34,133 bases of DNA from Chloroflexales bacterium ZM16-3 (lineage in GTDB: Bacteria; Chloroflexota; Chloroflexia; Chloroflexales; Chloroflexaceae). Position 1 is the stretch's first letter, and the number at the start of each line of letters is the position of its first letter. Shown here one piece after another: positions 1,690 through 26,859 of the stretch. The stretch spans positions 1 through 34,133 of the forward strand of contig RYFE02000053.1 in assembly GCA_004138175.2 (NCBI GenBank). The letters are read 5' to 3'. The position numbers and the translations under genes were made by a program. A model generated the notes under the pieces. It was not told where the DNA came from, made no database searches, and saw only the letters and a program-made list of their open reading frames with translations.

Positions 1690-2028
1690 TCCCTGCTTCC
1701 TCTCATCGCGTGCTGCACCAGACGGCGCTGCCAAGCTGCGGCACGACCGTCGATCAGTTTACGCATCCTCATTCTTCGTTGCATACGTGCAGCATAGCAT
1801 AGATGGGCGATATGTGAGCGCATCGCGACAGGAGCCGTACCTTCACTATCGCGCGGTATGTATACGTGTTCCCCGATTGCGTGCCGCGATCACATCTCCC
1901 GTCCGATCAGATGCGGTATCCATGAGCGGTGCCCGCATGGTATACTTCGGCGGTCTCATCATAGGCAAGCACCGATCCATCTTCCTTCGCAGTGAACACG
2001 CATCGCTGCTGCATGTATGAGGGTGCGC
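1690..2028. other. Intergenic region between divergent antitoxin and helicase genes
   Basis: About 340 bp without a convincing gene; open frames here have no ribosome-binding site or family signal. It is clearly more AT-rich than the flanking genes and must hold the leftward antitoxin promoter and the start of the long rightward block. It contains small palindromic TATGTATACGTG-like and repeated GCATA elements (about 1778-1870) that could be regulator sites, but no well-formed operator. Confidence 0.5.
1918..1946 (+). promoter_or_regulatory. Possible promoter for the defence block
   Basis: TATACT at 1941-1946 is a good sigma-70-type -10 hexamer about 80 bp before the helicase start. The hexamer at the right distance upstream (around 1918-1923) is a poor -35, so this would be a weak or activator-dependent promoter. 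This is only a candidate. Confidence 0.25.
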
Positions 2029-10750: not shown

Positions 10751-13700
10751 ATGCCCCACACAACCATCGTTACCGAGGGCGGGCTGCTGCCCAGCGATAT
10801 CCTCGACGCGATCGCCGCCGGCGAGCTGGCCGGCCAGCGCCCCGAGGACTTCGGCCTGGAGCGCACCCGCAATCTCTCCGACCGCATCTCGGCGGCGTGG
10901 CAGGCCGCGCGCGGCCAGTGGGCGCTCTTCCAGTCCTACCTGGCCGATCTGCCCGCCGGCGAGACGGCCACCTCGGAGACCCGCGAGCAGTGGGTGCTGC
11001 CGCTGCTGCGCGTCCTCGGCTACCAGCTGGCCCGCAACCGTAGCGCCTACGTCGTCCAGGGCCGTACCTACGCCATCTCCCATCGCGCCGGCGAGGCCGA
11101 TGATACGCCGCCCGTGCATATCGAGAGCATCCGCAACAGCCTCGACGCCCGCCCGCCCTCGGGCCGCCCGCGCCTCTCGCCCCACGCCCTCGTGCAGGAG
11201 TACCTCAACAGCACCGAGCAGCTCTGGGGCATTGTCACCAACGGCGAGCGCCTGCGCCTGCTGCGCGACTCCTCGCGCTTCACCCGCCCGACCTATGTCG
11301 AGTTTGACCTGCGCGCAATGCTGGAGGGCGAGAAGTTCTCCGAGTTCGCCCTGCTCTACCGCCTGCTCCACCGCTCGCGTATGCCCGTGGGCGCCGATGA
11401 TGCCGCCGCATGTCTGCTGGAGAAGTATCACCAGCAGGCCGTCGAGGCCGGCGGCCGCGTGCGCGAGGGTCTGCGCGATGGGGTGGAGTCGGCCCTGAAG
11501 CTGCTTGGCGACGGCCTGCTGCGCCACCCGGCCAACGCCGCGCTGCGCGCCAAGCTGGGAATTGTAGATGGCACGCGGATGGCGCAGATGCCACAGATCG
11601 ACACGGATCAGCCTGAACAGCACGATCAGAATCAGAACCGCGAGAATCTGTCCGATCCGCGTCATCCGCGTGCTATCGAGCTAACGCCGCTCGGCTACTA
11701 CCGCCAGCTGCTGCGCCTGGTCTACCGCCTGCTCTTCCTGATGGTCGCCGAGGAGCGCGGCCTGATCGCGACCGCCAATGACGAGGACGAGGGCGACATC
11801 CTCTCGCCCGCCGCCTACCGTCCCGCGCCCGACCGACGACTCGCCATCTACCGCGAGTACTACAGCCTGGGCCGGCTGCGCCGCATGGCCGAGACCTCCG
11901 GCACGGGCCGTGGCTCCTACACCGACCTCTGGGCCGGTCTGCTGACCACGTTCCGCCTGCTCGAGGGCAGCGACGAGGTCGCGCCGCGCCGCCTCGGGCT
12001 GGCCCCGCTCGACGGCGATCTGTTCAGCGATGCCGCCTGCGCCGCCCTGACCACGAATACCCACCTGACCAACCGTGAGCTGCTGGCCGCCGTGCGCGCC
12101 CTCTCACTCTACCGCGAGAAGGAGAGCAAGGCCCTGCGCCGCGTCAACTACGGCGCCCTCGACGTGGAGGAGCTGGGCAGCGTCTACGAGAGCCTGCTTG
12201 ACTACCGCCCCGTTGTGAGGGCTGAGGGCTCAGGGCTGAGGGCTGAGGGCGGAAGGCTGAGGGCTGAGGGCGGAAGGCTGAGGGCTGAGGGCGGAAGGCT
12301 GAGGGCTGAGGGCTCAGGGCTCAGGGCTGAGGCTCCGATCACATCAGCCCTCAGCCCTCAGCCCTCAGCCTTCTTCGACCTCGTCGCCGGCACCGAGCGA
12401 AAGACCACCGGCAGCTACTACACCCGCCCCGAGCTGGTGCAGGAGCTGATCAAGAGCGCCCTGGTGCCGGTGCTGGAGGAAAGGCTGAGGGCTGAGGGCG
12501 GAAGGCTGAGGGGCAGCGACAGGGCGCAGGGTTCGGAGCATCAGCCCTCAGCCCTCAGCCCTCAGCCCTTGAAAGACCCTCATCCCTCTTCCAAAGCCCT
12601 CGAAGACGCAATTCTATCCATTAGGGTGATCGATCCTGCCTGCGGATCGGGGGCCTTCTTGCTCGCCGCCGCGCGCCGCCTCGGGCGCGAGCTGGCCCGC
12701 GTGCGCGCCGGTGAGGATCAGCCCTCGCCCACGCAGTTCCGCCGCGCCGTGCGCGATGTGATCCGGCGCTGCATCTTCGGCGTCGACCTCAACCCGCTCG
12801 CGGTGGACCTCTGCAAGCTGGCGCTGTGGATCGAGGGCCACGCCGCCGGCCTGCCGCTCAGCTTCCTCGACCACCACATCCGCCAGGGCAACAGCCTGGT
12901 CGGCGCGACCCGCGCCTTGGTGGAGCAGGGCATCCCCGACGATGCCTACAAGGCCGTGACCGGCGACGACAAGCCGACGGCGAGCAGCGTCAGGAAGCGC
13001 AACAAGCAGGAGCGCGACCTCTACCAGAAGCAGGGCATGGTTCAGCAGGATCTCTTCGCCGCCCAGTCCCACGCCGGCGACGATATGGCCGCCGCCCTGC
13101 GCGCTCTCGACGAGGCCGCCGACGACAGCGTGGCCGCCGTGCGCGCCCGCGCCGCCCGCTACGCCGCCCTGCGCCGTCAGTCCGACGCTGAGCGCACGAA
13201 GTTCGACCTCTGGACCGCCGCGTTCTTCCAGCCGCTCACGACAGCGAACACCCGCTACGTGCCGACCACCAAGGATCTGATCGACTTCCAGCCCGCCGGC
13301 GAGAAGGCGCTCATGGCCGCGCCCCTGGCTGATGACGTGGGCTTCTTCCACTGGGAGCTGGAGTTCCCGCAAGTTTTTCACCACAGAGACACAGAGGCAC
13401 AGAGGCCGGACGATTCAAAAGAATCTCTGCGTCTCCGTGCCTCTGTGGTGAACATGCCCGGCTTCGACGTTGTCCTCGGCAACCCGCCCTGGGAGCGAAT
13501 CAAGCTCCAGGAGCAGGAGCACTTCGTGGATGTGCCCGCCATTGCCGGGGCCGCCAACAAGGCCGCCCGCGAGAGGGTCATCGCTACTTGGCGCGGAGGC
13601 GACGAGCGCCAACGCGCCCGCATCGCCGAGTTCGACGCCGCCAAGTACCGCGCCGAGGCCGAGAGCCGCTTTGTGCGCGCATCCGGGCGCTTCCCGCTGA

Positions 13701-15148
13701 CGGCGGTGGGCGACGTGAACACGTATGCGTTGTTTGCCGAACAGTTCCGTACCTTGTTATCCCCACCGGGGCGGGCGGGCATTATTGTGCCTACGGGTAT
13801 CGCGACGGACGATAGCACCAAGGATTTCTTTGGCGATCTCAGCGTGCGGCGACAGCTTGTAAGCCTCTACGATTTTGAGAACCGCGAGGCAATCTTTCCG
13901 GGCGTGCATCGAAGCTACAAGTTTTGCCTGCTCACCACAGGTGCAACGAGGGAGCCAACCCAGTTTATCTTCTTTGCCGCCAATGTGACACACCTGACTG
14001 ATAAGCAGCGCGTCTTCACACTCACCCCCGAAGAGATCGCCCTGATCAACCCGAACACCCGCACCGCGCCGGTCTTTCGCACCCGCCAGGATGCCGATCT
14101 GACCAAAAACATCTACCGCCGCGCCCCAGTGCTGATCAATGAGCGTACTGAGACAAACCCTTGGGGAGTGCGCTTTATGGCCATGTTCCACATGTCCAAC
14201 GACAGCCGCCTCTTTCAGAGCGCACCGGGCGAGGGATTGCTGCCGCTATATGAGGCTAAACTGCTTCACCAGTTTACTCATCGTTGGGCTACCTATGATG
14301 GTGATGCTGCCCGCGACAGTAGCACTGATGAACTGGTCGATCCAGCAAAGAGCATTACACCGCGCTACTGGGTGCCGACTAACGCTGTTACTGAGCGATT
14401 GGCTCATTGGAAATATCATTGGATTATGGCTTTTCGACGGGTAGCCAGAGTTACAGATGAGAGAACAGCCATTTTTACCATACTACCCAATGTTGCTGCT
14501 GGTGACAGCGTTTTTTTACTTTTACCCATGAATGCAAATAGCCTCACGATAGCTTGTTTGCTGGGAACAGTAGGTAGCGTCGTATTTGACTTTGTTACCC
14601 GTCAAAAAGTTGGTGGCGTCAACTTCAGCTTTTTCATCGTCAACCAACTCCCCGTCCTCCCGCCCTCTACATTCACCCCCGCCGACATCGCCTACATCGT
14701 CCCGCGCGTCGTCGAGCTGGTCTACACCGCCTGGGACATCAAAGCCTTCGCCGAGGACGTATGGGCCGAGGCAGACAACGAATTACGGGCGCTCATCCTG
14801 GCCCGCCGGATGGACAACCACAGAGACACAGAGGCACAGAGCTCAGACGAAATCAAAACTCTGTGCCTCTGTGCCTCTGTGGTGAACTCCGACCCGCCGC
14901 CCCCATTCATCTGGCACGACGAGCGCCGCGCCCTGGCCCGCGCCGAGCTCGACGCGCGCATCGCCAAGCTCTACGGGCTCACCCGCGACGAGCTGCGCTA
15001 CATCCTCGACCCGGCGGACGTGTACGGGCCGGACTTCCCCGGCGAGACCTTCCGGGTGCTGAAGGAGAAGGAGACGAAACTGTACGGCGAATACCGAACG
15101 AGAAGGCTGGTGCTGGAGGCGTGGGATCGGGAGAACGCACAGCGGTAA
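10751..15148 (+). CDS. Large N6-adenine DNA methyltransferase (DrmMI/PglX/Eco57I-like)
   Basis: 1465 aa; transfers methyl from S-adenosylmethionine to adenine in DNA, in DISARM marking self DNA. The SAM site DPACGSGAFLL is near residue 628, the acidic loop GVDLNPLAVDLCKLALW near 675, and catalytic motif IV NPPWERI near 911-917, the form typical of gamma-type N6-adenine enzymes. The N-terminal 480 residues are helical and specificity domains occupy about 1000-1465. ATG 10751 follows GAGG at 10737-10740. The gene is interrupted in frame by five repeat-derived stretches (residues about 272-309, 489-540, 577-606, 877-899 and 1356-1377), the third just before motif I and the fourth just before NPPW, yet it stays open throughout. 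The DNA for about 13740-14650, the expected target-recognition part, is visibly more AT-rich than the rest, suggesting recombinational exchange. Enzyme class is certain; activity with these inserts is unproven. Confidence 0.92.
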   Translation: MPHTTIVTEGGLLPSDILDAIAAGELAGQRPEDFGLERTRNLSDRISAAWQAARGQWALFQSYLADLPAGETATSETREQWVLPLLRVLGYQLARNRSAYVVQGRTYAISHRAGEADDTPPVHIESIRNSLDARPPSGRPRLSPHALVQEYLNSTEQLWGIVTNGERLRLLRDSSRFTRPTYVEFDLRAMLEGEKFSEFALLYRLLHRSRMPVGADDAAACLLEKYHQQAVEAGGRVREGLRDGVESALKLLGDGLLRHPANAALRAKLGIVDGTRMAQMPQIDTDQPEQHDQNQNRENLSDPRHPRAIELTPLGYYRQLLRLVYRLLFLMVAEERGLIATANDEDEGDILSPAAYRPAPDRRLAIYREYYSLGRLRRMAETSGTGRGSYTDLWAGLLTTFRLLEGSDEVAPRRLGLAPLDGDLFSDAACAALTTNTHLTNRELLAAVRALSLYREKESKALRRVNYGALDVEELGSVYESLLDYRPVVRAEGSGLRAEGGRLRAEGGRLRAEGGRLRAEGSGLRAEAPITSALSPQPSAFFDLVAGTERKTTGSYYTRPELVQELIKSALVPVLEERLRAEGGRLRGSDRAQGSEHQPSALSPQPLKDPHPSSKALEDAILSIRVIDPACGSGAFLLAAARRLGRELARVRAGEDQPSPTQFRRAVRDVIRRCIFGVDLNPLAVDLCKLALWIEGHAAGLPLSFLDHHIRQGNSLVGATRALVEQGIPDDAYKAVTGDDKPTASSVRKRNKQERDLYQKQGMVQQDLFAAQSHAGDDMAAALRALDEAADDSVAAVRARAARYAALRRQSDAERTKFDLWTAAFFQPLTTANTRYVPTTKDLIDFQPAGEKALMAAPLADDVGFFHWELEFPQVFHHRDTEAQRPDDSKESLRLRASVVNMPGFDVVLGNPPWERIKLQEQEHFVDVPAIAGAANKAARERVIATWRGGDERQRARIAEFDAAKYRAEAESRFVRASGRFPLTAVGDVNTYALFAEQFRTLLSPPGRAGIIVPTGIATDDSTKDFFGDLSVRRQLVSLYDFENREAIFPGVHRSYKFCLLTTGATREPTQFIFFAANVTHLTDKQRVFTLTPEEIALINPNTRTAPVFRTRQDADLTKNIYRRAPVLINERTETNPWGVRFMAMFHMSNDSRLFQSAPGEGLLPLYEAKLLHQFTHRWATYDGDAARDSSTDELVDPAKSITPRYWVPTNAVTERLAHWKYHWIMAFRRVARVTDERTAIFTILPNVAAGDSVFLLLPMNANSLTIACLLGTVGSVVFDFVTRQKVGGVNFSFFIVNQLPVLPPSTFTPADIAYIVPRVVELVYTAWDIKAFAEDVWAEADNELRALILARRMDNHRDTEAQSSDEIKTLCLCASVVNSDPPPPFIWHDERRALARAELDARIAKLYGLTRDELRYILDPADVYGPDFPGETFRVLKEKETKLYGEYRTRRLVLEAWDRENAQR
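11565..11679. repeat. CGCGGAT hairpin repeat inside the methyltransferase
   Basis: Starts with TAGATGGCACGCGGATGG and ends with GTCCGATCCGCGTCATCCGCGTGCTATCGA, matching the ends of the GxxExxY element. Read in frame as a Gln/Asp/Asn-rich linker (IDTDQPEQHDQNQNREN) between two helical segments. Confidence 0.75.
12215..12371. repeat. GAGGGCT heptamer array with inverted CAGCCCT arm, in the methyltransferase
   Basis: A left array of 7-bp GGCTGAG units and 14-bp GGCTGAGGGCGGAA variants (12215-12332) faces an inverted CAGCCCT array (about 12343-12371), so the transcript could fold into a long hairpin. Translated, it gives a 7-residue period RAEGGRL repeated several times, then SALSPQPSA. It ends just before the conserved TGSYYTRPELV motif. 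Confidence 0.85.
12480..12570. repeat. Second heptamer array in the methyltransferase
   Basis: The same GGCTGAGGG units (12480-12511) and inverted CAGCCCT units (12540-12570) around a 28-base spacer. Translated as RLRAEGGRLRG...HQPSALSPQPL, directly upstream of the SAM-binding motif I. It separates the conserved TGSYYTRPELV region from DPACGSGAF. Confidence 0.85.
13381..13448. repeat. CACAGAG hairpin repeat just before the NPPW motif
   Basis: 24-bp arms 13381-13404 and 13425-13448. It encodes an HHRDTEAQR-type insert between FPQVF and MPGFDVVLGNPPW, fewer than 15 residues before the catalytic motif. It is the same element as the intergenic copy at 7201. Confidence 0.88.
14818..14882. repeat. 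CACAGAG hairpin repeat near the methyltransferase C-terminus
   Basis: 24-bp arms 14818-14841 and 14859-14882 with a 17-base loop. It encodes NHRDTEAQ...LCLCASVV in frame, between the last specificity segment and the C-terminal helical tail. Confidence 0.88.
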
Positions 15149-15162
15149 AAGGAGCTTGGGCT

Positions 15163-17382
15163 ATGGCGAATGACAACGAAGCGCGCTCGGCGGTTTTCAT
15201 TGAGGAGACTTACAACTACACGATCATTGCCGACACCCAGACGGAGATCACCTGCACTGGCACCAGCGGGCAGGTGCGAGTCACCGTCCCATACGACGGC
15301 CGCTCCATTGGCAAGGCAGCCCCTGGGGCACTCATTGATTTCGGCCAGCTGCGCCTGCGCAAGCCCTCTCAGGGCACGGCATGGAGCACCTGCCCGATCC
15401 AGCTCCCGATCGGCACCGATCTTCCCCGGATGCTCCGTAACAACCGCGAGTCGGTGTGGGAGTGGAGCTACATACCCGACGCTCCTCGTGACACCCTCCT
15501 GAATCTTGAGGCCGCCGTCATTGACGGGGCGGCCCTGGACCCTTCGATGGATGACAATCTGCTCGCCGAGCTGCTCTTTCACAACGTCGAGGCGTTTGTG
15601 AACGATCTACGGCTCCGGCTCAAGCTATGGGTGCCGCGCCTCAACACCGCAGCGCTGATAGGTGCTCGCGGCCACGAGCTGCGCGGGCTGATACTGGAAC
15701 AGGAGAGCAAGGTCCAGATCTTTCTGCCTTCGGGGGCATCGGAGGAGCTGCTTGCTCAGAGCCTCGCTGCGCTCGCCAACACTGCGGGCGGACGGTTGCT
15801 GATCGGCGTGGGCGCTCAGGGTACCGTGGATGGCCTGCGTGGCGAGCTAGCCGATAGCGAGGCCATCGGCCTACGGAGACTGCTCCTGCAAGCGGCTCTG
15901 CGCTGCGATCCGCCCGTGGTATTCGCCCCACCGGCCATGCTGGAAGATGAAGATGGCAGGCGCGTTGCGCGAGTCAACGTCCCGCCCGGCCAGAGCGAAC
16001 AGCACGTCTACCAAGACAAGCTGTGGCTGCGCGAGGGGCCAACGACGGTGTCGAAGGCCCGCTCGGGAAACCGGCACCCTGCCCCGGCGCCGCAGCCGCT
16101 TGGCGACCTGGCTAATCTGGTTGCTGCCGGCCCCACAGCGGATGTAATAATGCTGGGGAGCAAGGGCGTCGAGGTTACGGCGAACGATCTCGGGCGTGCG
16201 ATCACGGCCCTGGTCAACGCTGCGGTTGGCCAGGGACTGATCGTGGTGCGACACCTAGCGCCGCCGCAGGGCTGGACGGCACGTCTGGCGAGCCAAAACG
16301 CAAACCAGAGCTTTGAGAAGCAACTCAGGAGCGCGCTTGAAGGAATCTGCCCTCAGATCTTCAACCCACGCCCGGAGTATGCCACCATTGAGGGAGAGCG
16401 TGTCGTTGTGCTCAGAATCAAAGGGCATCAGCCAACGGTGGCTACCTACAAAGGCGCAGCATACGAGTGGACGGGTACCGCGCTGCGGGAGGTCGATCAT
16501 GAAGAGCTCTACCGCCGGTATATGCTGCGTTCGGGCCAGCAACTGCACAGTGGCCCGAGCGGTGACACGGTCACACTCCTCTACGGTGAAATCAGTTGGC
16601 CGAGCCACCCTCCAACCAGAGCGAAGCTCAGCGCCATGCTTCAGCAGGATACCGCAGATAAAAGCCTGGCGCACTTCGACCACCAGGTGCGTGCGATGGT
16701 TTGGCACAACCTTCCCTTCAGCAACCTTAGGGGCACGCAGGGATCCGGCTGTCTTCTGAACACAGGCTTGCGTCATGCGTTTGCGAGGCCCTCTAACCCG
16801 GGCGCAACCTCAGACCTGAACCTCAACGGGGTGATCCAGATCAGAATCGACAATGTGCTGGCGTCGGGCACAGAGTACGAGATCCAGGCCAACCACCCGC
16901 TGATCCAGGGGGTGCCAGTCTACAAGCGTACCCAGCTCATTGCGAACCTCCAACTCAACATACCCGAGCTCTTTGCAAACCGCCAGCGGGCCGCGCTCCT
17001 TCATTTTCAAATCCCCGATGTCGCAGCAGGCCGGGAGCTCGAAGAGCGCATCTTCGATCTCCAGCAGATCTGCGCCGACGTGGGCTTCTGGGTGGCGAAG
17101 CCCTCCCCATCCTCCGAGCTATGGGGGCTCCTGCGGGGGATCCGCAACACCGGCCACCGGGACATCTCTCTTGCTCTCGGCTTCCGTTGTACCACAACCG
17201 ATGTCGCCCGTGAACTGCGTTTCAGCCAGCGCGTCGACCATAAGCAGATCAAGGTGGGCCACCTGGATGTCCGGATAGTGCTCTCGGGTGTCGGTGATAA
17301 GGTGAGCGAGGAACTGACCTCGCTCCAGATGGAGCTTAGCCAGTTGATCCACGACCGGCTGTACTACCTGCGGACGGAGTAG
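15163..17382 (+). CDS. Schlafen AlbA_2 domain protein
   Basis: 739 aa. The N-terminal about 170 residues are unassigned. An AlbA_2-type domain follows (about 177-290): EESKVQIF-like entry, ALANTAGGRLLIGVGAQG near 200-220, then VNVPPGQSEQHVYQDKLWLREG, the usual end of this fold. A second degenerate copy appears at about 328-460 (DLGRAITALVNAAVGQGLIVV ... AAYEWTGTALREVDHEEL). The C-terminal 275 residues are beta-rich and unassigned. AlbA_2 domains bind nucleic acid, and related Schlafen cores cleave RNA; which applies here is unknown. ATG 15163 is chosen because AAAAGGAG lies 8 bases upstream; the same frame is open further left but that part overlaps the methyltransferase and the 14818 repeat. 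It starts 14 bp after the methyltransferase stop and 6 bp before the next gene, so it is co-translated with the cassette. Confidence 0.8.
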   Translation: MANDNEARSAVFIEETYNYTIIADTQTEITCTGTSGQVRVTVPYDGRSIGKAAPGALIDFGQLRLRKPSQGTAWSTCPIQLPIGTDLPRMLRNNRESVWEWSYIPDAPRDTLLNLEAAVIDGAALDPSMDDNLLAELLFHNVEAFVNDLRLRLKLWVPRLNTAALIGARGHELRGLILEQESKVQIFLPSGASEELLAQSLAALANTAGGRLLIGVGAQGTVDGLRGELADSEAIGLRRLLLQAALRCDPPVVFAPPAMLEDEDGRRVARVNVPPGQSEQHVYQDKLWLREGPTTVSKARSGNRHPAPAPQPLGDLANLVAAGPTADVIMLGSKGVEVTANDLGRAITALVNAAVGQGLIVVRHLAPPQGWTARLASQNANQSFEKQLRSALEGICPQIFNPRPEYATIEGERVVVLRIKGHQPTVATYKGAAYEWTGTALREVDHEELYRRYMLRSGQQLHSGPSGDTVTLLYGEISWPSHPPTRAKLSAMLQQDTADKSLAHFDHQVRAMVWHNLPFSNLRGTQGSGCLLNTGLRHAFARPSNPGATSDLNLNGVIQIRIDNVLASGTEYEIQANHPLIQGVPVYKRTQLIANLQLNIPELFANRQRAALLHFQIPDVAAGRELEERIFDLQQICADVGFWVAKPSPSSELWGLLRGIRNTGHRDISLALGFRCTTTDVARELRFSQRVDHKQIKVGHLDVRIVLSGVGDKVSEELTSLQMELSQLIHDRLYYLRTE

Positions 17383-17388
17383 AACATC

Positions 17389-19170
17389 ATGACAATCCAA
17401 TTTCAAGGCGAAGAATCGAAGCCGCAGCTCAGATGGCAGCGTACACCGGGCTCCCCGATCCGCAGCCACAAAAGCTACGAGCGTCCCGCCAACCAGATCT
17501 GCCACCACTCAGGGCAGTACCTGACCGTCGAGGAGACCAATCCACAGCGGGTGGTCTGGCTGCGCGAGCAGCACGACTTCCCTGGCTTTAAGACACTGGA
17601 CGCCCGCTTCCAGAGCGCCGCCCATGCCAGCGAGGCGCAGCACCTGGTCTGGAGCATGCCGGCTGTCCGAGCCGTAGGGCTGCTGATCGGCTCGCTGCTG
17701 CTCCTAGCCGGGATCGGGCTCCTCTGGACGCGGATCGCGCAGTGGAGCGGCTGGTTCGAGGGTGCGTTGATCTTTGGGGCGATGATGGTGGCCGGTGCTG
17801 GTGCTGTGGCGATGCTGGGGATCGGCATCAGGCTGATCACAGAGCGGGCTAACATCTACCATCAGCAGGCCATGGGTGAGCGCCCGGCGGTCAGCTATTT
17901 CCCCCTCTTTGGCGCGTACCATGTCGAGATCAAGGAAAGCTACGAGCTCAACTTAGTTAATAGCGAGCCCATCATAACGAACCAGATCGTGGCCAGTGGT
18001 CTCGTGACCGTCACGGTACACCCCGAGCCTGATGCCTCGGATACCTACCGCACCTACCGGCAGCTCTATGGAGCCCATCGCGGCACCGGGGTGGGCGAAC
18101 ATCTACATGCGGGGGCGGTTGCCTTTGAGGGTCGTGAGTGGGTCAGCTTTACCCCACCGATCGATTACGATCATCGCATCGCTCTGCGTCAGCCGATCGA
18201 GCAGCAGTTCGTGGTGGCAGGCGAGCCCCAGCAGAAGCCCATACACTTTGAGGTTCCCTACCGGATCGATGGCGCAGTGCTGCGAACGGAGGACGACCCT
18301 CGGCGTGGGCGCAGCAAGCTCAAGATCATCCCTCAGCTGGCCAGCTTCGATAGCTACACCATGCACCTCACCTTTTTGTGGAGCGGCAAACCGAAGGAGT
18401 GCTTCCTGAAGGAGTGCAGGCTTGAGATCCCTTCTGAGCTTGGAAATATCCTTCAGGTGGAACTTGGGCGTAGCGTGTATGGCACCAATGGGCCAGAGGT
18501 GGTCTGGCGCAATCTCTTGTTCGAAAATGGGAAGCTCGTGCTGGCGGTGCGCTTTGCCGATCCGCTCCTCGGCCCTACGGCTCCGGCAAGCCTTGAGGGC
18601 TCATACCACTTAGTCGTTGGCGGAGCCGTGTCAGGGTTACAGGTTCCCCCAGACCACGTGTGGGACCCGACCGGGCGTTGTGTAACTCCGCGCGCCCAGC
18701 CAAAGCCAACCATGAGCGCGATCAGTGAGATCAAGGGCAAGCTCACCACACATATCGCGGTGCTGGCCGAAGAGCATGAGCACGTCGATACGCTCCGTCT
18801 TCGTACCTCGGCCGAGACGGACAGACCGCTGATCAAGCAGATCACGCACATGCTGACGAAGATGGGGGTTGACATCCAGCGGATCGAGGAGGCGATGCCC
18901 CGCCACGACCCTCTTGATAGCCAGAGCAGCCAGCTGCGCTACTGGGATGTTATCGGTCGCATCTACGGCTCTGCCAACCGCGAGGCGCTGGACATCCATG
19001 TTGTCGTCAGCGGCAGCACCTCAGACACCCCACAGCCGCAGGTGCAGACAACCATCGATGTGCGGGTGCGCTGCCTCCACGATCCCCGGAACACCTCGGT
19101 CGTGCAAGAAGTGGCTGATACCTGCAAGCTGATCAACGACAATCTCAGCTCGCAACTGCCCATACTCTAG
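17389..19170 (+). CDS. Two-TM membrane protein of unknown function
   Basis: I do not recognise this 593-aa protein. Two hydrophobic helices stand at about residues 94-113 and 124-147, separated by a short loop with Trp residues (WTRIAQWSGWF), so the N-terminal 90 residues and the large C-terminal region lie on the same side of the membrane, probably the cytoplasm. The C-terminal part is beta-rich up to about 440, then a helical segment (SEIKGKLTTHIAVLAEEHEHVDTL...). It starts 6 bp after the AlbA_2 gene with GGAG upstream and ends 38 bp before the CHAT gene. Given this context it may anchor the CHAT and AlbA_2 proteins at the membrane; that is inference. No signal peptide or catalytic motif is visible. 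Confidence 0.75.
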   Translation: MTIQFQGEESKPQLRWQRTPGSPIRSHKSYERPANQICHHSGQYLTVEETNPQRVVWLREQHDFPGFKTLDARFQSAAHASEAQHLVWSMPAVRAVGLLIGSLLLLAGIGLLWTRIAQWSGWFEGALIFGAMMVAGAGAVAMLGIGIRLITERANIYHQQAMGERPAVSYFPLFGAYHVEIKESYELNLVNSEPIITNQIVASGLVTVTVHPEPDASDTYRTYRQLYGAHRGTGVGEHLHAGAVAFEGREWVSFTPPIDYDHRIALRQPIEQQFVVAGEPQQKPIHFEVPYRIDGAVLRTEDDPRRGRSKLKIIPQLASFDSYTMHLTFLWSGKPKECFLKECRLEIPSELGNILQVELGRSVYGTNGPEVVWRNLLFENGKLVLAVRFADPLLGPTAPASLEGSYHLVVGGAVSGLQVPPDHVWDPTGRCVTPRAQPKPTMSAISEIKGKLTTHIAVLAEEHEHVDTLRLRTSAETDRPLIKQITHMLTKMGVDIQRIEEAMPRHDPLDSQSSQLRYWDVIGRIYGSANREALDIHVVVSGSTSDTPQPQVQTTIDVRVRCLHDPRNTSVVQEVADTCKLINDNLSSQLPIL

Positions 19171-19208
19171 CCCACCCCCGGGTGAGCTACAGCAAACGGA
19201 GCTAACCA

Positions 19209-20738
19209 ATGAGCGACGACAACCCACTTCTTCTCACTCTAGACTTTATAAATAATGGTGGGCAGGCCATTATCCGTTGGTATAGCGAGGTGCTTGACGG
19301 TGACAATACTGACTTTGTCCCCCCTTACGCATCGAGCGAGCTGCCGGTGGTCATCAAAGCTCTGGACACGTTGCAGAGGCCGCAATCTTTCGGCGGGGAG
19401 GAAATCGCCGTTCTGGAACACCACGGTCTCTGGGAGCATGGATTTGTAACGCAGCGGGCGGCTCATCAGGTCGGCAGCGCACTCTACACCGCCCTGGGCC
19501 ATAGGGGCCAGGCGCACATCGAGCAGACAATCGGTCACGCTCGCCTTAATAGGCGTAGCATCAACTACCGGCTCCGCTTTCTGCCTGAGGGTGTGGAACT
19601 GGCCGCACTGCCGTGGGAACTGCTTCGCAGCCCGCGCCATTTCCTGCTGATGCGACCGGACGGCAGGGACTCGTGCGAGCGCAACATCCTGTTTGGACAG
19701 CCGCCACCCCCGGCTCTTGCGGAGGGCGAGACCCCACATGTCCTTGTGCTGCTACCTCACTTCGCCATCGACGCAACAATACGGGCCGCCCAACTCCAGA
19801 TCTTCGAGCGGCTCCAGTCCCGGGGCGCGCTTACCTACGAGGCCCTCAGCCCGGTGACGCCCGACGGGCTGTATCAGCACCTGGCCGCGACGAGGCGCCA
19901 GCCGCATATTGTCCACTATGCAGGCCACGGCGTCTACTTTGAGCAGCAGGGTTGGCTCCTCTTCGACGATCTCAAAGGCGGCAAACAGCGGGTTAGCGCC
20001 GAGCAGTTCAGCACGCTGGTCGGCACGATCCATCTCGCCGTCATCCAGGCATGCCAGTCAGCCATGGTGTCCAAGGGGGAATTGCTCACCGGCGTGGCGC
20101 CGGCCCTGAGCTATGCCACCGATGCGGTGGTAGCGATGCAGCTACATGTGCGAGTTGATGCTGCGCACCGTTTTGCCGAGACACTCTACGAAGAGCTGCT
20201 GATCCGCGCTACATCGCTGCGCAGTGCGGTCGCCAGAGCGCGCCGCAACCTTTTTGGAACTGAACAGGAGCCGGTAAGCTGGTTTGTGCCGGCGCTCTAC
20301 CTGCGGGTGGAGCCTCAGTTTGCCTCCAGGCTGACCCCTGCCGGCTCTACCTCTCTGGAGCGCACGATCGTCCGGTCGCCCATCCGCCAGATAGCGCTCG
20401 ATCCACTTGTGGTTGGCCACGTTGAGCTGACGCTTTCGTGTGACCCGCGCACAAGAGACTGGTCACTCGTGGCGCATAATCACTCGCCGCATGAGGTAGA
20501 GTCGATCACCATCACAGCCGGGCAGATGCCGCCCGGGATCCGAATCCATCCGCCTCAGATCAGGATCGCCCGTGCGCGTGCCGGTGACAGCTCGGCACCG
20601 GAAGCGGTAACACTTACGCTCGGCTCAGCCACTCAAGGCTCGCGCATCCCTGTGAACGTCACCTACCGTGTTCGCCAGACGGGCCAGATTGGGCGCTACA
20701 CTGGCGCATTTACGGTGCAACTAGCTGATGAAGGATGA
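19209..20738 (+). CDS. CHAT-domain cysteine peptidase
   Basis: 509 aa. CHAT peptidases are caspase-like cysteine proteases (clan CD) that act in several prokaryotic defence systems, including the type III-E CRISPR protease. The fold is clear: ELAALPWELL near 130-139, the His motif HYAGHG with His240, and the Cys motif AVIQACQSA with Cys282, so the catalytic pair is intact. The C-terminal 120 residues (about 385-505) look like an immunoglobulin-type beta-sandwich, perhaps for partner binding. GGAG at 19198-19201 supports ATG 19209. The short N-terminal 110 residues are unassigned and there is no TPR array or STAND ATPase attached, unlike many CHAT proteins; the sensing role may lie in the separate propeller proteins encoded next. 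Family is certain; the target protein is unknown. Confidence 0.9.
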   Translation: MSDDNPLLLTLDFINNGGQAIIRWYSEVLDGDNTDFVPPYASSELPVVIKALDTLQRPQSFGGEEIAVLEHHGLWEHGFVTQRAAHQVGSALYTALGHRGQAHIEQTIGHARLNRRSINYRLRFLPEGVELAALPWELLRSPRHFLLMRPDGRDSCERNILFGQPPPPALAEGETPHVLVLLPHFAIDATIRAAQLQIFERLQSRGALTYEALSPVTPDGLYQHLAATRRQPHIVHYAGHGVYFEQQGWLLFDDLKGGKQRVSAEQFSTLVGTIHLAVIQACQSAMVSKGELLTGVAPALSYATDAVVAMQLHVRVDAAHRFAETLYEELLIRATSLRSAVARARRNLFGTEQEPVSWFVPALYLRVEPQFASRLTPAGSTSLERTIVRSPIRQIALDPLVVGHVELTLSCDPRTRDWSLVAHNHSPHEVESITITAGQMPPGIRIHPPQIRIARARAGDSSAPEAVTLTLGSATQGSRIPVNVTYRVRQTGQIGRYTGAFTVQLADEG

Positions 20739-20742
20739 GTCG

Positions 20743-22008
20743 ATGCAGCACCCACAAAATCCCGACCCTTCGAGCTACCGTTGGGCTGGGACCGGCGAGG
20801 CGGCCCCACGCACGGCCGACTCTTTTCCCGCTCGCGCCTTCTACCGCTGGATCCTAGTGGGCCTGGCAGGCTTTGTCCTTATGGCCGGGCTGTATCTCTA
20901 TCTGGAGCACCGGGCCTCCAGACAGATCATCTATGTAACGCCTGACAGCGCCCTCGCGGCGGTGCGTGCCGATGGGACTGGCGCTCGCAAGCTAAACCTC
21001 GCCGGCTTAGCGTATCGAACCGCAGGACAGCCCCAATGGGCGCCGCAAGGGGGGCGTTTCGCCAGCCTGATCGAGCTCCCCTCAGGCTACACGCTGCTGG
21101 TCGCCGGCAGCTCGGGCCAGCGAGTTGCCCAGTTGCCTCTGGCAGACTCTGTGGCTCCCGCGCTGCTGCCGCAGGCGTGGGCACCGGGTGGGGATCATGT
21201 GGTGATGACCAGTCAGCGCGCTGGACAGACCGAGCTCCAGATCGCCAACCTTGATCAACAGCAGATAGTGCCAATTGAGCATCCCCTGGCCGACCGCCAC
21301 ATCTCTTGGCACCCGCGACAGGATCAACTGCTGGTGACAACACTAACCGAGGAGTTTACGCAGACGATCCAAGTCGTCACCATGGACGCCCAGGAGCGCC
21401 CTTTCATCCCCGCAGATGGATTTCAGCACCATAGCCAGGCCGCCTGGTCCCCTGATGGTAGACAGATCGCTTATATTGCAAGCGCCAGCCTCGACAGCCC
21501 TGAGCGGCCTCTGTTTGTCGTAAATGCAAACGCCAGCTCGCCCGTGAAAGTGGTCGCAGATGGGCAGAACTATCTGCCTATCTGGGCACCCAGAGGCGAT
21601 CTGATCATCTTCACCCGCTACAATAGCGAAACGAACGAGTTCATGCTTTATCGCGTGCAGCCTGACGGTGAGGGACTTGCTCCAATCGGTCGTGGTCTGC
21701 CGCAGGAGATCGCCATGACCGACCCTCAGAGCGTTGCCTCCTGGTCGCCTGATCGAGCCTGGATGATCTTTCAGAGCCTTGACCCAAGTACTGGCCAGAT
21801 CGAACTGTCCCTTGCCCGCTACGATGGTAGCAATCCGAGCTCCCTTATCTCAGGACTTAGGAACGGCTCGACCTCAATTCGCGCTATCTGGTCGCCGACC
21901 AGCCGGGGCGTCCTGGTGGCTAGTAACGGTCAGATCTCGATGCGCTGGCTGAGCCACAAGGAACAGGAGGTCTTTGCACAAGGCACCTTCCCACACTGGG
22001 AGCCATAG
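20743..22008 (+). CDS. Membrane-anchored TolB-like beta-propeller (PD40 repeats)
   Basis: 421 aa. One transmembrane helix (about residues 36-54, ILVGLAGFVLMAGLYLYL) follows a short N-terminal region, then several PD40/TolB blades: AAWSPDGRQIAYIA, PIWAPRGDLIIFTR, ASWSPDRAWMIFQS and AIWSPTSRGVLVAS, plus weaker earlier ones. A signal-anchor topology would put the propeller outside the cytoplasm; the charge balance beside the helix is not decisive. ATG 20743 is preferred because AAGGA lies 7 bases upstream; an in-frame ATG at 20728 overlaps the CHAT stop but has no such site. It is translationally linked to the CHAT gene and followed 18 bp later by a second propeller gene. Such propellers usually bind proteins or glycans and have no catalytic role. 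No enzyme motif is seen. Confidence 0.85.
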   Translation: MQHPQNPDPSSYRWAGTGEAAPRTADSFPARAFYRWILVGLAGFVLMAGLYLYLEHRASRQIIYVTPDSALAAVRADGTGARKLNLAGLAYRTAGQPQWAPQGGRFASLIELPSGYTLLVAGSSGQRVAQLPLADSVAPALLPQAWAPGGDHVVMTSQRAGQTELQIANLDQQQIVPIEHPLADRHISWHPRQDQLLVTTLTEEFTQTIQVVTMDAQERPFIPADGFQHHSQAAWSPDGRQIAYIASASLDSPERPLFVVNANASSPVKVVADGQNYLPIWAPRGDLIIFTRYNSETNEFMLYRVQPDGEGLAPIGRGLPQEIAMTDPQSVASWSPDRAWMIFQSLDPSTGQIELSLARYDGSNPSSLISGLRNGSTSIRAIWSPTSRGVLVASNGQISMRWLSHKEQEVFAQGTFPHWEP

Positions 22009-22026
22009 CCCACAAAGGAGAAACGC

Positions 22027-24009
22027 GTGCGCCGCTCTATCCTTATCACCGCCGCTATCATTGGGGGAGTGCTCACGCTCATTGTCGCTGTAGCGCTGGT
22101 ATTACAGGTTCAAACCGCTATCGTGACTACCGATGGCCCGCCTCCCCCAGCATTCCCGATGCCGACGGTGCGGCAGGCTGTGTCAGACCAGCAGGAGGGC
22201 GGACAGGCCACGCTCGTGCCTGCGGAGTCCTCACCAGGCGCAAGCCCACCCCCCGCCCCCAGCGCAACTGTGGAGGCGCTGGTGGAGGAGCCGTTCACTC
22301 CGCTTATCTACGATGATTTCACCAACCTTCAAAGCGGCTGGGCGGTGTTATATCTTGACCAACGCGGCAATGCAAACGGCTACAGCGCAGAAAGCTACAT
22401 GCTCGATGTGGGCCGTCCCGGCGAGATCCTGTACGATGTGCGTTCCGACCTGCCCTTCACGCCCTCGCACTTCGCGATCGAGATTCACTCGGCTCAGGGA
22501 TCTGGGCGCTTTGGGCTGATGTTCGATGTGACTGGGGATTCGAACAACTACGCCAGCCTTTCCTACTATGCGATCACCCTGACCTCCGATGGGGAGGTAG
22601 GGCTGATCCAGCAGCTTCCCGGCCAAAGTGCGCCTCAGGTACTACAGGTCGGGAACCGCTTGATTAGCCCACTAGGGCCTGAGCGCACCCTGAACCTGGA
22701 AATCCAGCGGGGTTCAGACGGGCTTGTCGCATATGTTGACGGGCAGGAGGTGCTGCGGTCGGCGATCAATACAGGTGATGGCAGCGTGGGGCTGCTGGCA
22801 TTCACTGATAGCTTTCTCCGTGTCCAGTTCGACAACCTGCTGCTTAGCGCAGCGCCAGCGCGGCAGGGGCCTATCTGCGCTGGCCTTCGCTTGCTCTTCC
22901 AACCTATTGGAGCGACCGAGCAGGCGAGAAACGACGATGTTGCCATTGTGCAGGATCGGCTACTTAGCCTTGGCTATGATCCTGGCCCGATTGATGGCAT
23001 CTTTGGCAATCTGACTGCTGTCGCAGTCAGGACGTTTCAAACGCGCAATGGCCTCATCCCTGACAGTGTGGTCAGGCCCAACACGTGGTGCTCACTCCTT
23101 TCAAGCGACGCTATCCGCGCTGACGGCCTCACAGAGCGCACTGAAAACCGCGCCCGCTTCCGTACCATAAAGATCATCCCCGGCGTACTCCTGCCCGCAC
23201 CACTGTTACTATCCGTGCGCGGGCCCGATGAGCTCTGGCAGATTGGGCTTGCTTTGCCGGGCAGAGATGAGCTTCGCTATATTGACACCCAGGGTGACGC
23301 CTTTGATCCGGCGTGGAATCCGCGCACACGATCGCTCGCTTTCACTTCGGTGCGAGCCAATCCCTCCCTGGGCTCAATCTGGTATCTCAACATGCTGACC
23401 GGAGAGGTTGAACAGCTTTCTCCTCCAGAGCTCGATGCACAGTTCCCCACATGGTCACCTGATGGACGCACTCTGATCTACACGGTTGAGACACCAGGAG
23501 GTGGAACTGAGAGTGCGCGTAACTTCCGCTACGACCTAGCTACAAGGCAGAGCGTTCAATGGAGCGATCAGCATGCGGGCTGGTCCGACTGGTCAGTTCA
23601 GGATCGCGTGGTCTTCACCCGTTGGACAGGGCGCAGTTTTGATATTTTTGTCGCTAATGGTGATGGTACTGGGGAGACCAACCTCACAAACTCTGATGAC
23701 TTCGACGAGGATATCCCCGCTTGGTCGCCGGACGGCGAAAACATAGCTCTTGTTCGTAGTCTTAGGTCGAGCCGTAGTGATCGCCAAGTCTTTGTGATGC
23801 GAGCTGACGGAACCGGTCTCCGACAACTCACCACTATTCCTGGCCCGAACAGTAACCCAATTTGGCTGGATGCAATGACAATTGTCTTTGCGAACCAACC
23901 TAACGACCAGGAGCGACAACCTTATGTCATTGACTTGGCAGGCAATATGAAGCAGTTGAGTGCCAACGAAGACCGAATATGGTTCATGGGTCGCCTGGAC
24001 TTTCAATAG
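22027..24009 (+). CDS. Surface protein: TM anchor, LamG-like domain, peptidoglycan-binding domain, TolB propeller
   Basis: 660 aa with four parts. A signal anchor (about residues 4-28, after MRRS) is followed by a Pro/Ala-rich linker. A concanavalin/LamG-like jelly roll follows at about 93-280 (DDFTNLQSGWAVL ... VQFDNLLLSA). A PG_binding_1-type domain at about 304-360 has the hallmark LLSLGYDPGPIDGIFG and AVRTFQ. A C-terminal TolB/PD40 propeller at about 420-655 contains PAWNPRTRSLAFTS, PTWSPDGRTLIYTV and PAWSPDGENIALVRS. The GTG start has AAAGGAG 6 bases upstream. The peptidoglycan-binding domain makes an extracytoplasmic location likely. With its neighbour it forms a pair of propellers beside a CHAT peptidase, which suggests outside sensing. 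Domain calls are good; the role is inferred. Confidence 0.87.
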   Translation: MRRSILITAAIIGGVLTLIVAVALVLQVQTAIVTTDGPPPPAFPMPTVRQAVSDQQEGGQATLVPAESSPGASPPPAPSATVEALVEEPFTPLIYDDFTNLQSGWAVLYLDQRGNANGYSAESYMLDVGRPGEILYDVRSDLPFTPSHFAIEIHSAQGSGRFGLMFDVTGDSNNYASLSYYAITLTSDGEVGLIQQLPGQSAPQVLQVGNRLISPLGPERTLNLEIQRGSDGLVAYVDGQEVLRSAINTGDGSVGLLAFTDSFLRVQFDNLLLSAAPARQGPICAGLRLLFQPIGATEQARNDDVAIVQDRLLSLGYDPGPIDGIFGNLTAVAVRTFQTRNGLIPDSVVRPNTWCSLLSSDAIRADGLTERTENRARFRTIKIIPGVLLPAPLLLSVRGPDELWQIGLALPGRDELRYIDTQGDAFDPAWNPRTRSLAFTSVRANPSLGSIWYLNMLTGEVEQLSPPELDAQFPTWSPDGRTLIYTVETPGGGTESARNFRYDLATRQSVQWSDQHAGWSDWSVQDRVVFTRWTGRSFDIFVANGDGTGETNLTNSDDFDEDIPAWSPDGENIALVRSLRSSRSDRQVFVMRADGTGLRQLTTIPGPNSNPIWLDAMTIVFANQPNDQERQPYVIDLAGNMKQLSANEDRIWFMGRLDFQ

Positions 24010-24057
24010 ATGCCGCTCCTCTGTTCGTAGAGCGGTGGAATAGCGGAGTAAACGCCT

Positions 24058-26859
24058 ATGTCCCGCATCAACCTCCCCGCCACCCAGCCCTTCTACGATG
24101 CCGCCCAGGCATTCGTCGATCTGGCCCTGCGCCAGGATCGCTCGCTGTTCACACCGGGAGTGGCGATCTGGACGAAGGACAACCTCGACGAGTTGCACCG
24201 GCGCTTCAACGACAACCCCGACGAGAGCGGCGGCAGCTTCGCGCAGAAGTTCCAGAAGCAGCTCGCCGGCGCCACCCCGGAGATCTACCAACTCGCCGGC
24301 GAGCTGATCTATGTCCACGTTCTAATCGCTACCGGCAATATCGGCGGCGGGGCCAAGCGCACGCTCATCCACCGTGTGCTCGGCTGGTCGCCACGCGGCG
24401 TGGCCATCCCCAAAGAGCTCGACGCCGCGCTCGACACCGGGCTGGCCCGGGTGGGCACCGCATTCCTGACCTACCGGCCCTTCCAGCTCTGGTTCCTGAT
24501 CGACTTCGCCCGCGCCTGGAAGGGTCTCCCGGCCGATGAGCGCGAGCGGCTGCTCGCCGACCCCTGGGCGTTTAAGGCCATGGTCTTCGCGCTGCCGATC
24601 AGCCGAGCCTACGCCCAGCGCGAGGCCCTGCTGCACATCGTCTACCCTGACACCTTCGAGGCGATCGTCTCGCGGGAGCACAAGCGCGCGTATGCCAACC
24701 TCTTCCGCGACCTGATCGCCACGCCCTCGGGCGACGTGGACCGGGACTTGAAGCAGATCCGCACCGTGCTTGATGCACGCTACGGGCCTGGCCACGGCCT
24801 CTACGCGATCCGCGATGGCAACGTCAACCCGCTTCCGCCGGCCGGCCCGCTGCCGCGCAGCCTCGGCACCGCGCTGAAACCCTATGTGCGCCTCATCGCG
24901 CTGCTCGACGAATCGAGCTACACGCCCGCCCAGATCGTCGAGCGGTTTGGTCGCGTCAGCCCGCCCATCGCGAACCTGGCCGCCCCGCCCGACCCCGAGG
25001 CGCTGGTCGGCGACCTGCTGCGCTTGCGCCTGCTTGAGTCGCTTGCGCCCGACGGCACCTACCGCCGCTGGGCACACCTCAACAGCGCCATCGAGAGCCA
25101 GGTGCTGCGCTACGCCGCGCTGACCCTGCTCGTCCCGCTGGGCGACGGCAGCCACGAGCTCCCAGCGCTGCGTGCGCCCCTTGACGGCGATCCGCATCCC
25201 GCCGCCGCCTGGCCGTACCCCGATGTACTTCTGCCCTGGTATGCTGAGGCTGGCCTGGCGCGACAGATCGAAGATGGGCGCTGGCAGGCCAGCCCGGACG
25301 CCCTCAGCCCCCTGACGGCGACCAACGACTGCGCCCGCGCACTCCACACCTTCCTCGGCTACCTCACGCACGCCCGAGCGGGGCAGGCCGAGATCCCGCC
25401 CATCACCGACGATGCGCTGCCGCCCCTCGACCCCACCGTGCTCGACGAGCGCATTGTCGAGATCCAGCGCGAGCTGCTCATCGACCGCAGCACCATCCTG
25501 CGCATCTACCGCGCCCTCGTATCGGGCAACCACGTCATCCTCAGCGGCCCGCCGGGCACCGGCAAGACCCATCTGGCGAAGCTGCTGCCCCGCGTGCTCT
25601 GGCGGGACGCCGAGCCGGTCGTCCAGCTCACCCTCAGCACCGATCCGCGTCGCTCGCCCACCGATCCGCCGACTGAGCGCCAAGTCTTCCGCGACGGCTA
25701 TGTGGCCGAGGTGGTCACCGCCACCGAGGACTGGGGCGTGCGCAATGTGATCGGCGGGATCGTGCCGCAGCTGGTGCGCGATGGTGACCGGCGGGCGCTC
25801 GCCTACCAGATACGGCACGGCTACCTCACGCGGGCCGTTCTTAGCAACTACACCGGCTATGACGGGATCGCCCCGCCCGCGACCTTCCAGCGCCAGGAGG
25901 TGCAGGACGGCACCGCGCGCTGCCGCGGGCGCTGGCTGGTGATCGACGAGTTCACGCGGGCACCCATCGACGCCGCCTTCGGCAGCCTGCTGACCACCCT
26001 GGGCGGTCAGCGCAGCCCGCTGGCGGTGCCCACAGACGATGGCGAGGTGCAGGTGCCTCTCCCGCGCGACTTCCGCATCATCGGCACGCTCAACAGCTTC
26101 GACCGGCACTTCCTCAACCAGATCAGCGAAGCGATGAAGCGGCGCTTTACCTTCATTGATGTGCTACCGCCAGGGCTGGCCCTCGCCGCCGCAGAGCGTG
26201 GGGCGGCGGCCACGCGCGCGCTGCGCAGCCTGGATGCGCAAGGACTCCTTGATATCACCGAGGATACGGCTGAGGGCCGGCTGATCTGGGAGGATGTGGT
26301 CACGATCACGCGGGCCGAACATGCGGAAGGCGAAGCCCCCAGCTACACCCTGGGCTGGGACGACGCGGACGGGCAGGCGGCATTGGACTCCTTCTGGCGG
26401 ATCTTCGGTGCGATCCGCGTCTACCGCCAGCTGGGCACGGCCCAGGCCGAGACCGTGTGCAGCGCACTGTTCAGCGGCCACATGATTGGGATGTCCTGGG
26501 CCGAGGCCCTCGACTCCGGCCTCGCTGACACCTTGGCCGACCAGCTCCAGGTCATCGCCCGCGACGAGCAGCGCGTGCTCCTGGCCTACCTCGATCAGGC
26601 GGGCAACCCAGAGCGCTTCGTCGAGCGGGTGCGGCAGATCCTCGGCGGGCTGCCCGCCGCCCGCCAGATCGCCCACCTGACCCACCTACAGAGCGCCGAC
26701 CATCGGCCGGGCAGCGATGTGATCGACGACATTGACGCCACGAAGCTGAGCAAGGATCAGCTCGGGCGCATCTTCACCCTCGATAGCCCCCTCACGATAA
26801 GCGGGCGCGGCCTGTTCGCGCAGCGCCTGCGGTCGTTCGTCGGCGAGCGCGGGCTCTAG
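24058..26859 (+). CDS. McrB-like AAA+ NTPase
   Basis: 933 aa. The AAA+ domain occupies about residues 470-730: Walker A GPPGTGKT at 497-504, Walker B VIDEF near 627-631, then GTLNSFDRHFL near 677-687, the sensor motif resembling the MNxxDR signature of the McrB family, and SEAMKRRFTFID. McrB hydrolyses GTP and drives translocation of the McrC nuclease. The first 450 residues form a long helical region followed by a winged-helix-like stretch and would be the target-recognition part. GGAG near 24043 and ATG 24058 mark the start. It ends one base before the nuclease gene, a typical coupled McrB-McrC arrangement. Whether it reads modified DNA, as classical McrBC does, cannot be seen. Confidence 0.88.
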   Translation: MSRINLPATQPFYDAAQAFVDLALRQDRSLFTPGVAIWTKDNLDELHRRFNDNPDESGGSFAQKFQKQLAGATPEIYQLAGELIYVHVLIATGNIGGGAKRTLIHRVLGWSPRGVAIPKELDAALDTGLARVGTAFLTYRPFQLWFLIDFARAWKGLPADERERLLADPWAFKAMVFALPISRAYAQREALLHIVYPDTFEAIVSREHKRAYANLFRDLIATPSGDVDRDLKQIRTVLDARYGPGHGLYAIRDGNVNPLPPAGPLPRSLGTALKPYVRLIALLDESSYTPAQIVERFGRVSPPIANLAAPPDPEALVGDLLRLRLLESLAPDGTYRRWAHLNSAIESQVLRYAALTLLVPLGDGSHELPALRAPLDGDPHPAAAWPYPDVLLPWYAEAGLARQIEDGRWQASPDALSPLTATNDCARALHTFLGYLTHARAGQAEIPPITDDALPPLDPTVLDERIVEIQRELLIDRSTILRIYRALVSGNHVILSGPPGTGKTHLAKLLPRVLWRDAEPVVQLTLSTDPRRSPTDPPTERQVFRDGYVAEVVTATEDWGVRNVIGGIVPQLVRDGDRRALAYQIRHGYLTRAVLSNYTGYDGIAPPATFQRQEVQDGTARCRGRWLVIDEFTRAPIDAAFGSLLTTLGGQRSPLAVPTDDGEVQVPLPRDFRIIGTLNSFDRHFLNQISEAMKRRFTFIDVLPPGLALAAAERGAAATRALRSLDAQGLLDITEDTAEGRLIWEDVVTITRAEHAEGEAPSYTLGWDDADGQAALDSFWRIFGAIRVYRQLGTAQAETVCSALFSGHMIGMSWAEALDSGLADTLADQLQVIARDEQRVLLAYLDQAGNPERFVERVRQILGGLPAARQIAHLTHLQSADHRPGSDVIDDIDATKLSKDQLGRIFTLDSPLTISGRGLFAQRLRSFVGERGL

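Follow-up and report, generated by a model that had tools for sequence, protein, structure and literature searches.

Genes of the cassette and of the surrounding operon

The window analysed here is the whole stretch of 34,133 nucleotides of contig RYFE02000053.1 from Chloroflexales bacterium ZM16-3. Its forward strand carries five adjacent genes, encoding an AlbA_2-domain protein (AlbA), a membrane protein (TM2), a CHAT protease and two TolB-type propellers (PropA and PropB), which are flanked on both sides by genes of a larger operon (Table 1). All five open reading frames described in an initial annotation are present at that place and on that strand, and their domains were found by Pfam and hydropathy. 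Other genomes, contigs and loci are referred to by G, C and L numbers.

Table 1. Features of the host operon, the cargo slot and the five-gene cassette, with positions in the window
Feature	Position	Strand	Product or domains	Basis
DruE/YprA-like helicase	2017..7200	+	DEAD + MZB	PADLOC, Pfam
SNF2 helicase	7293..10187	+	DpdE/DrmD/BrxHII-type	DpdE 4.3e-198, DrmD 1.1e-92, BrxHI/II 6.4e-62
Methyltransferase	10751..15148	+	DrmMI/PglX-type	DrmMI 4.3e-64
Cargo slot	15149..24057	+	methyltransferase stop to McrB-like start	
AlbA	15163..17382	+	739 aa, SLFN_AlbA_2 at residues 192-295	PF04326 6e-10
TM2	17389..19170	+	593-aa membrane protein, no Pfam family	two TM segments by hydropathy
CHAT protease	19209..20738	+	509 aa, H240/C282	PF12770 9.3e-24
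PropA	20728..22008	+	426-aa TolB-type propeller, one N-terminal TM	PD40 5e-7, hydropathy
PropB	22027..24009	+	660 aa, signal anchor, PG_binding_1 (301-354), TolB-type propeller	PD40 4e-10, PG_binding_1 1.5e-14
McrB-like protein	24058..26859	+	AAA_5 protein	AAA_5 1.9e-12; McrB model 2.1e-8, below its cut-off
McrB partner	26861..29164	+	767 aa, McrC-like	position and a visually identified D...DAKYY motif only

The frame of AlbA as listed opens at 14761; the start that the orthologues share is the ATG at 15163. No Pfam match was found in the N- and C-terminal parts of AlbA outside residues 192-295, in the C-terminal stretch of the CHAT protein (approximately 380-509) or, above threshold, in the region of approximately 90-270 of PropB. 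The membrane segments of TM2 are located by hydropathy at approximately residues 90-113 and 124-149, and alignment of the TM2 relatives revealed a conserved CHH(S/T)GQYLT motif near the N-terminus. TM2 has no match in Pfam (E up to 1), NCBIfam or PADLOC.

The spacings within the cassette are 6, 38, -11 and 18 bp (AlbA-TM2, TM2-CHAT, CHAT-PropA and PropA-PropB, respectively). The gaps of 6-38 bp described initially thus hold for three junctions (6, 38 and 18 bp), whereas the first 11 bp of PropA lie within the CHAT gene; this overlap is kept in Ca. Oscillochloris fontis (G033). The annotation of the two propellers as anchored is borne out by an N-terminal membrane segment or anchor and a PD40 match in both, although the peptidoglycan-binding domain of PropB had been missed.

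The catalytic pair of CHAT, His240 and Cys282, is intact as annotated, and both residues are kept in the three aligned CHATs of the five-gene type. In the wider alignment, which holds sequences from the fetched loci and not all CHATs of the class, the catalytic His and Cys are each found in 22 of 24 proteins. No TM segment is predicted in the CHAT protein by hydropathy. In PADLOC at E 0.01, CHAT is the only one of the five proteins that is named (chat, 4.4e-9; SAVED_CHAT, 7.9e-7), the SAVED_CHAT model covering residues 193-386. Comparison of the five proteins with Pfam gave no NTPase, TPR, SAVED or TIR domain; SAVED, MoxR and vWA had no match at E up to 1.

The order of the YprA-like, BrxHII-like and PglX-like genes upstream is that of ARMADA Type I as set out in the main text of PMC12458937. 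From this gene order and the PADLOC DruE similarity of the helicase, the host operon seems to match ARMADA Type I with McrBC, and this appears to be a better name for it than DISARM, which had been given at first. Association of a DISARM-like system with McrBC is reported in the text of PMC11090510 and of PMC12458937, both from the same group. Several genomes of the class carry the host operon genes together. The McrC-like protein of 767 residues has no Pfam match.

Dispersed short repeats are found inside the methyltransferase frame, at approximately 12250-12600, 13377-13452 and 14816-14886. Read by eye, they encode RAEGGRLRAEGG and HRDTEAQ...LRASVV, and one of them immediately precedes the NPPW motif. 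Relatives have similar copies. ZM16-3 has a second copy of the host operon (L123, G000:C46:13001-33000), with NsnABC in its slot. In G034:C114 (L112-L114), from the same genus, a second helicase/SNF2/methyltransferase set lies inside a split methyltransferase gene. This inserted set is accompanied by further defence-like genes, judged by eye, and by two McrB-like copies after it.

Recurrence of the cassette and variability of its slot

All five genes are found in Ca. Oscillochloris fontis in the same order and on the same strand, with identities of 45-54% (52% for AlbA and 50-52% for PropB). The spacings there are 6, 36, -11 and 16 bp, compared with 6, 38, -11 and 18 bp in ZM16-3. Recurrence of the array in another species, with its order unchanged and the 11-bp overlap preserved, exceeds chance, and the five genes are one unit. 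The initial annotation had proposed that at least four homologues should occur together elsewhere, and five of five do so in G033. It had also expected recurrence, often near DISARM or McrBC genes, whereas no such operon lies beside this second complete copy. Within 60 kb around the G033 cassette there is no match to any gene that flanks the cassette in ZM16-3, and neither the McrB-like gene (E 1e-20) nor the SNF2 helicase gene (E 1e-40) is matched in the G033 genome. The surroundings look, by eye, like housekeeping genes, and a gene for an Mrr-type endonuclease is located approximately 5.7 kb from the cassette.

These two are the only complete copies known, and both are in one genus. In G011, TM2, CHAT and part of PropA are present on a contig of 4,088 bp, the ends of which remove the remainder; with a contig coverage of 0.92, the binning is uncertain and the contig may be mis-binned. 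In G004 only the AlbA-TM2 pair is found, at 30-33% identity (32% for AlbA), and this genome (85% complete) gave no CHAT match. This means that CHAT and the propellers are not obligatory partners of the pair. The AlbA-TM2 pair may be the ancestral core. The G004 pair (L009:1-15741) is followed by two genes for proteins of approximately 312 and 480 aa that, by eye, resemble ATP-grasp proteins; the gene of approximately 312 aa has no Pfam match.

The distribution of TM2 is narrow. It is matched in 4 of 158 class genomes (ZM16-3, G033, G011 and G004) and in 3 of 400 genomes of the phylum sample. A pattern-based search of the GTDB genome_contigs, of limited sensitivity, yielded three loci from 51 candidate stretches, all in the same three genomes. 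The carriers are, by kinship or title, Chloroflexaceae or Chloroflexota of the same family. The AlbA profile matches 76 of the 158 class genomes; three of these matches are full-length, and the others listed fall within profile positions 138-319. PropB is full-length only in ZM16-3 and G033 among the nine genomes searched.

A mobile origin was considered and set aside: no TM2 relative was found in plasmids, phages or IMG/VR (0 of 48 candidate stretches), nor any AlbA relative in IMG/VR (0 of 131 candidates). In addition, the regions 15091-15175 and 23961-24075 share no direct or inverted words of 8 bases or longer, and for this reason no insertion mechanism is proposed.

The slot that the cassette occupies has a G+C content of 0.607, compared with 0.666 and 0.691 in the flanks, and the genes in it are packed on the same strand as their neighbours, with 14 bp separating them from the methyltransferase gene and 48 bp from the McrB-like gene. 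DNA similarity to G040, G001, G015 and G034 stops at 15135-15152 and resumes at 24055-24058. These breakpoints fall at the methyltransferase stop codon (15148) and the ATG of the McrB-like gene (24058), which indicates that the insert consists of the five genes and nothing else. G016 has its left edge at 15127 and its right edge at 24847, the latter because its McrB-like gene is without the first part; G000:C46 yields only a right edge, at 24056.

The slot was compared in 13 other loci, one of them (G000:C46) in ZM16-3 itself, in which both flanking genes are co-directional on one contig; G015 was counted from a methyltransferase end of 43 bases only. McrB-like matches occur in 38 of the 158 genomes and the slot count refers to fetched loci, with G005, G019, G020, G023, G085, G112, G129 and G144 among those outside it. 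The divergent arrangements in G042 and G047 and fetched loci whose stretch has no methyltransferase match (G049:C73, G064 and G002 among them) are likewise excluded. The slot is empty in 4 of the 13 loci (G051, G041, G082 and G059; gaps of 13-97 bp) and filled in nine, with approximately 1 to 24 kb.

Known defence systems were found by PADLOC in three of the 13 slots, a count that has no matched background. They are Gabija in G040 (GajA, 1.5e-182; GajB, 3e-251), NsnABC in G000:C46 (1.8e-128, 3.7e-113 and 9.8e-35) and AbiLi/AbiLii in G037 (1.1e-103 and 2.1e-30). We take these gene sets to be complete systems, and NsnABC is presumably the system Menshen. PADLOC covered the cargo of four of the nine filled slots (10 proteins from G040, G000:C46, G037 and G034); the cargo of G021, G015 and G001 was compared with Pfam only, and that of G016 and G027 with neither. 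The text of PMC12458937 describes a GajB-like helicase as normally belonging to ARMADA Type II, so that the Gabija genes in G040 may be less independent than the other two cases.

The other filled slots are diverse. In G034, from the same genus, a CHAT-KAP NTPase protein, a GAF protein and a NERD protein are encoded, in a gap of 15.6 kb to the first McrB-like gene and approximately 24 kb to a near-identical second one; Pro is aligned at the catalytic Cys position of this CHAT. The G021 slot holds a helicase that weakly matches PLD, along with three genes that have no Pfam match. In the slot of G015, a small membrane protein and one of 456 aa are encoded, both with no Pfam match. The secreted M23 peptidase in the slot of G001 does not look like defence. 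The slots of G016 and G027 (two of the nine) are approximately 1 kb long and show no clear co-directional gene. The gap between the methyltransferase and McrB-like genes is a variable cargo slot in Chloroflexales (L104, L107, L123, L125, L117, L118 and L130), with uncharacterised cargo in G034, G021 and G015.

Relatives of CHAT, TM2 and AlbA

CHAT relatives are present in 70 of the 158 class genomes, often several per genome and in many contexts. In a FastTree phylogeny of 24 sequences from the fetched loci, the three CHATs of the five-gene type form one clade (0.989, 1.000), which is joined by the apparently solo CHAT of L056 (0.948) and then by those of L057-L061 (0.986). The CHAT gene of G040 (L060) is followed by two small open reading frames and then by genes for AAA_5 (MoxR-like), vWA_CoxE and AAA/FGE-sulfatase proteins. 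The CHATs of G016 and G015 have neighbouring genes of comparable size, and the CHAT of L061 is near a GAF-histidine kinase gene. Conflict-system contexts are therefore seen for some of the closest CHAT relatives but not for all. The text of PMC10907252 counts CHAT among the effector domains of bacterial defence. The neighbours of CHAT were also considered as a shared unit, which was rejected: the called genes of 20 regions gave no match to TM2, AlbA, PropA or PropB at E 1e-5.

The AlphaFold model of TM2, built from four sequences, has a mean pLDDT of 57 and is good mainly in parts of residues 311-590; residues 174-310 are mostly of low pLDDT. In the Foldseek search with this model, the first 41 rows were mu-homology domains of AP mu or COPI delta (best E 5.1e-5, rmsd 9-16 Å). 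This fold is known from the eukaryotic clathrin and COPI adaptors. Alignment of residues 174-454 with AP-2 mu by VIA-align gave a Z score of 9.3 over 206 residues at 5.4 Å, part of which lies in low-confidence sequence. No mu-homology chain is among the sequence matches of TM2. Since the match is partly in low-confidence residues and absent from the sequence matches, the mu-homology fold is regarded only as a lead. Residues 461-593 align with a chain that we take to be of the Bet v1/START-type fold (VIA-align; Z 10.6, 109 residues, 3.1 Å) and, tied with it, the beta2-adaptin appendage (Z 10.2, 94 residues, 2.3 Å). From the model, TM2 would weakly resemble a mu-homology domain (174-455) followed by a helix-grip or adaptin-appendage-like domain (461-593).

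The model of AlbA (mean pLDDT 43) was too poor for a fold search. Between AlbA and TM2, two weak collinear similarities were found; the profile matches are weak, with probabilities of 17.5%, 58% and 3.6%. The observed score was reached in 0 of 150 column shuffles for the N-terminal part, 1 of 150 for the C-terminal part and 0 of 60 for the whole, which is a lenient control. This collinear similarity would fit an old duplication. Schlafen-type RNases carry catalytic acidic residues. At what we take to be the second acidic position, the AlbA_2 stretch has Gln in all three AlbA proteins of the five-gene type. The motif is present in 12 further AlbA_2 loci, one of which (L026) has Glu and most of which have no acid there; 5 of 20 loci are without the motif.

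Proposed function of the cassette

In filamentous green bacteria the five genes form one block. In ZM16-3 this block fills a slot that holds known antiviral systems in related operons, and it is therefore probably a new bacterial immune system. A defence assignment had been made in the initial annotation, and it is strengthened by these known systems in the same slot of other host-operon copies. An antiviral or other defence role seems quite likely for the cassette. That the five genes are at once a unit, a defence system and exchangeable cargo of the ARMADA-McrBC operon is the reading we favour, with somewhat less assurance.

Among known systems, the cassette would be best classed, from its domains, with the CHAT-protease conflict systems, as a new variant of these. 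Like those with STAND/NACHT, MoxR-vWA or SAVED partners, it has a CHAT effector with an intact His/Cys pair and sensor-like partners beside it, and related CHATs of the class are found in such contexts. Its partners differ, however: AlbA_2, a membrane protein of no known family and two anchored propellers. The SAVED domain of SAVED-CHAT is absent. With the MoxR-vWA-beta-propeller ternary systems, as described in the main text of PMC7159879, it has beta-propellers and membrane-proximal parts in common, but MoxR and vWA are missing; Schlafen and AlbA are not mentioned in that main text. ARMADA Type I with linked McrBC (PMC12458937) differs in that the five genes are cargo inside it; the main text does not contain the words CHAT and Gabija, and GajB-like helicases are named there for Type II. 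Gabija, NsnABC and AbiL take the place of the cassette in other host-operon copies, but by family matches no gene of theirs resembles any of the five. The five-gene combination is not described in the titles and abstracts of the literature searched, a scope that mostly excludes subscription papers.

In the proposed mechanism, PropB, a cell-wall-binding propeller with a signal anchor, and PropA, a propeller with a single TM segment, would monitor the envelope. From its N-terminus, PropB has a signal anchor, a Pro-rich linker and a peptidoglycan-binding domain, and this layout places its propeller most likely outside the membrane. The two-pass TM2, with a large and probably cytoplasmic adaptor-like part, would couple the propellers to the soluble CHAT and the AlbA_2 protein. 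Upon infection, CHAT would be activated and cleave a co-encoded or host protein, leading to growth arrest or death. The membrane-linked sensor-protease complex put forward in the initial annotation would likewise be a prediction from domains and topology. The topology of TM2 and PropA is assigned provisionally, since simple charge counts do not decide. The direction of signalling and the substrate are tentative, and the mechanism taken alone is held less firmly than the unit and its defence role.

It competes with a model of the opposite direction, in which AlbA would sense phage nucleic acid or an altered nucleotide in the cytoplasm and activate CHAT, which would cleave TM2 or the propellers to release a membrane fragment that disrupts the envelope. 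Persistence of the AlbA-TM2 pair in G004, where CHAT is not found, the weak collinearity of the two proteins and the predicted solubility of CHAT are in line with this model. However, a peptidoglycan-binding propeller seems, in our judgement, more than a mere substrate would need, and Gln at the presumed acidic position of AlbA_2 weakens an RNase role, though not a binding role. We consider this model rather unlikely.

An envelope or proteostasis operon with no role in defence, inserted by chance in a defence operon, might account for the cell-wall-binding and TolB-like domains, the housekeeping-like surroundings in G033 and the secreted M23 protein in one other slot (G001). Against this, known defence systems are present in the slot elsewhere, one of the related CHATs has MoxR/vWA-type genes next to it, and the sparse, uneven occurrence of the cassette (4 of 158 class genomes have TM2) is unlike that of a housekeeping gene; this explanation is improbable. 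The cassette is very improbable as an accessory part of the ARMADA-McrBC operon rather than an independent system, as its tight same-strand packing against the flanking genes might suggest, because the same five genes are found in G033 with no such operon and the slot at other loci is empty or has other contents.

The preferred reading, a defence unit carried as cargo, can be extended to a trans-envelope immune receptor. In this receptor, wall-anchored propellers would lie outside, and a mu-homology-like, peptide-binding TM2 adaptor inside, with AlbA_2 as a distant paralogue of TM2, would deliver a bound peptide or partner to CHAT. This extension is speculative and, taken as a whole, doubtful.

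Most described prokaryotic defence systems sense infection inside the cell. If the proposed mechanism is true, the cassette would represent an immune system built on a CHAT protease, with sensors that lie outside the cytoplasm and bind the cell wall. Furthermore, the slot with sharp edges in ARMADA-McrBC operons could serve as a source of more defence systems of Chloroflexota that are not yet described.
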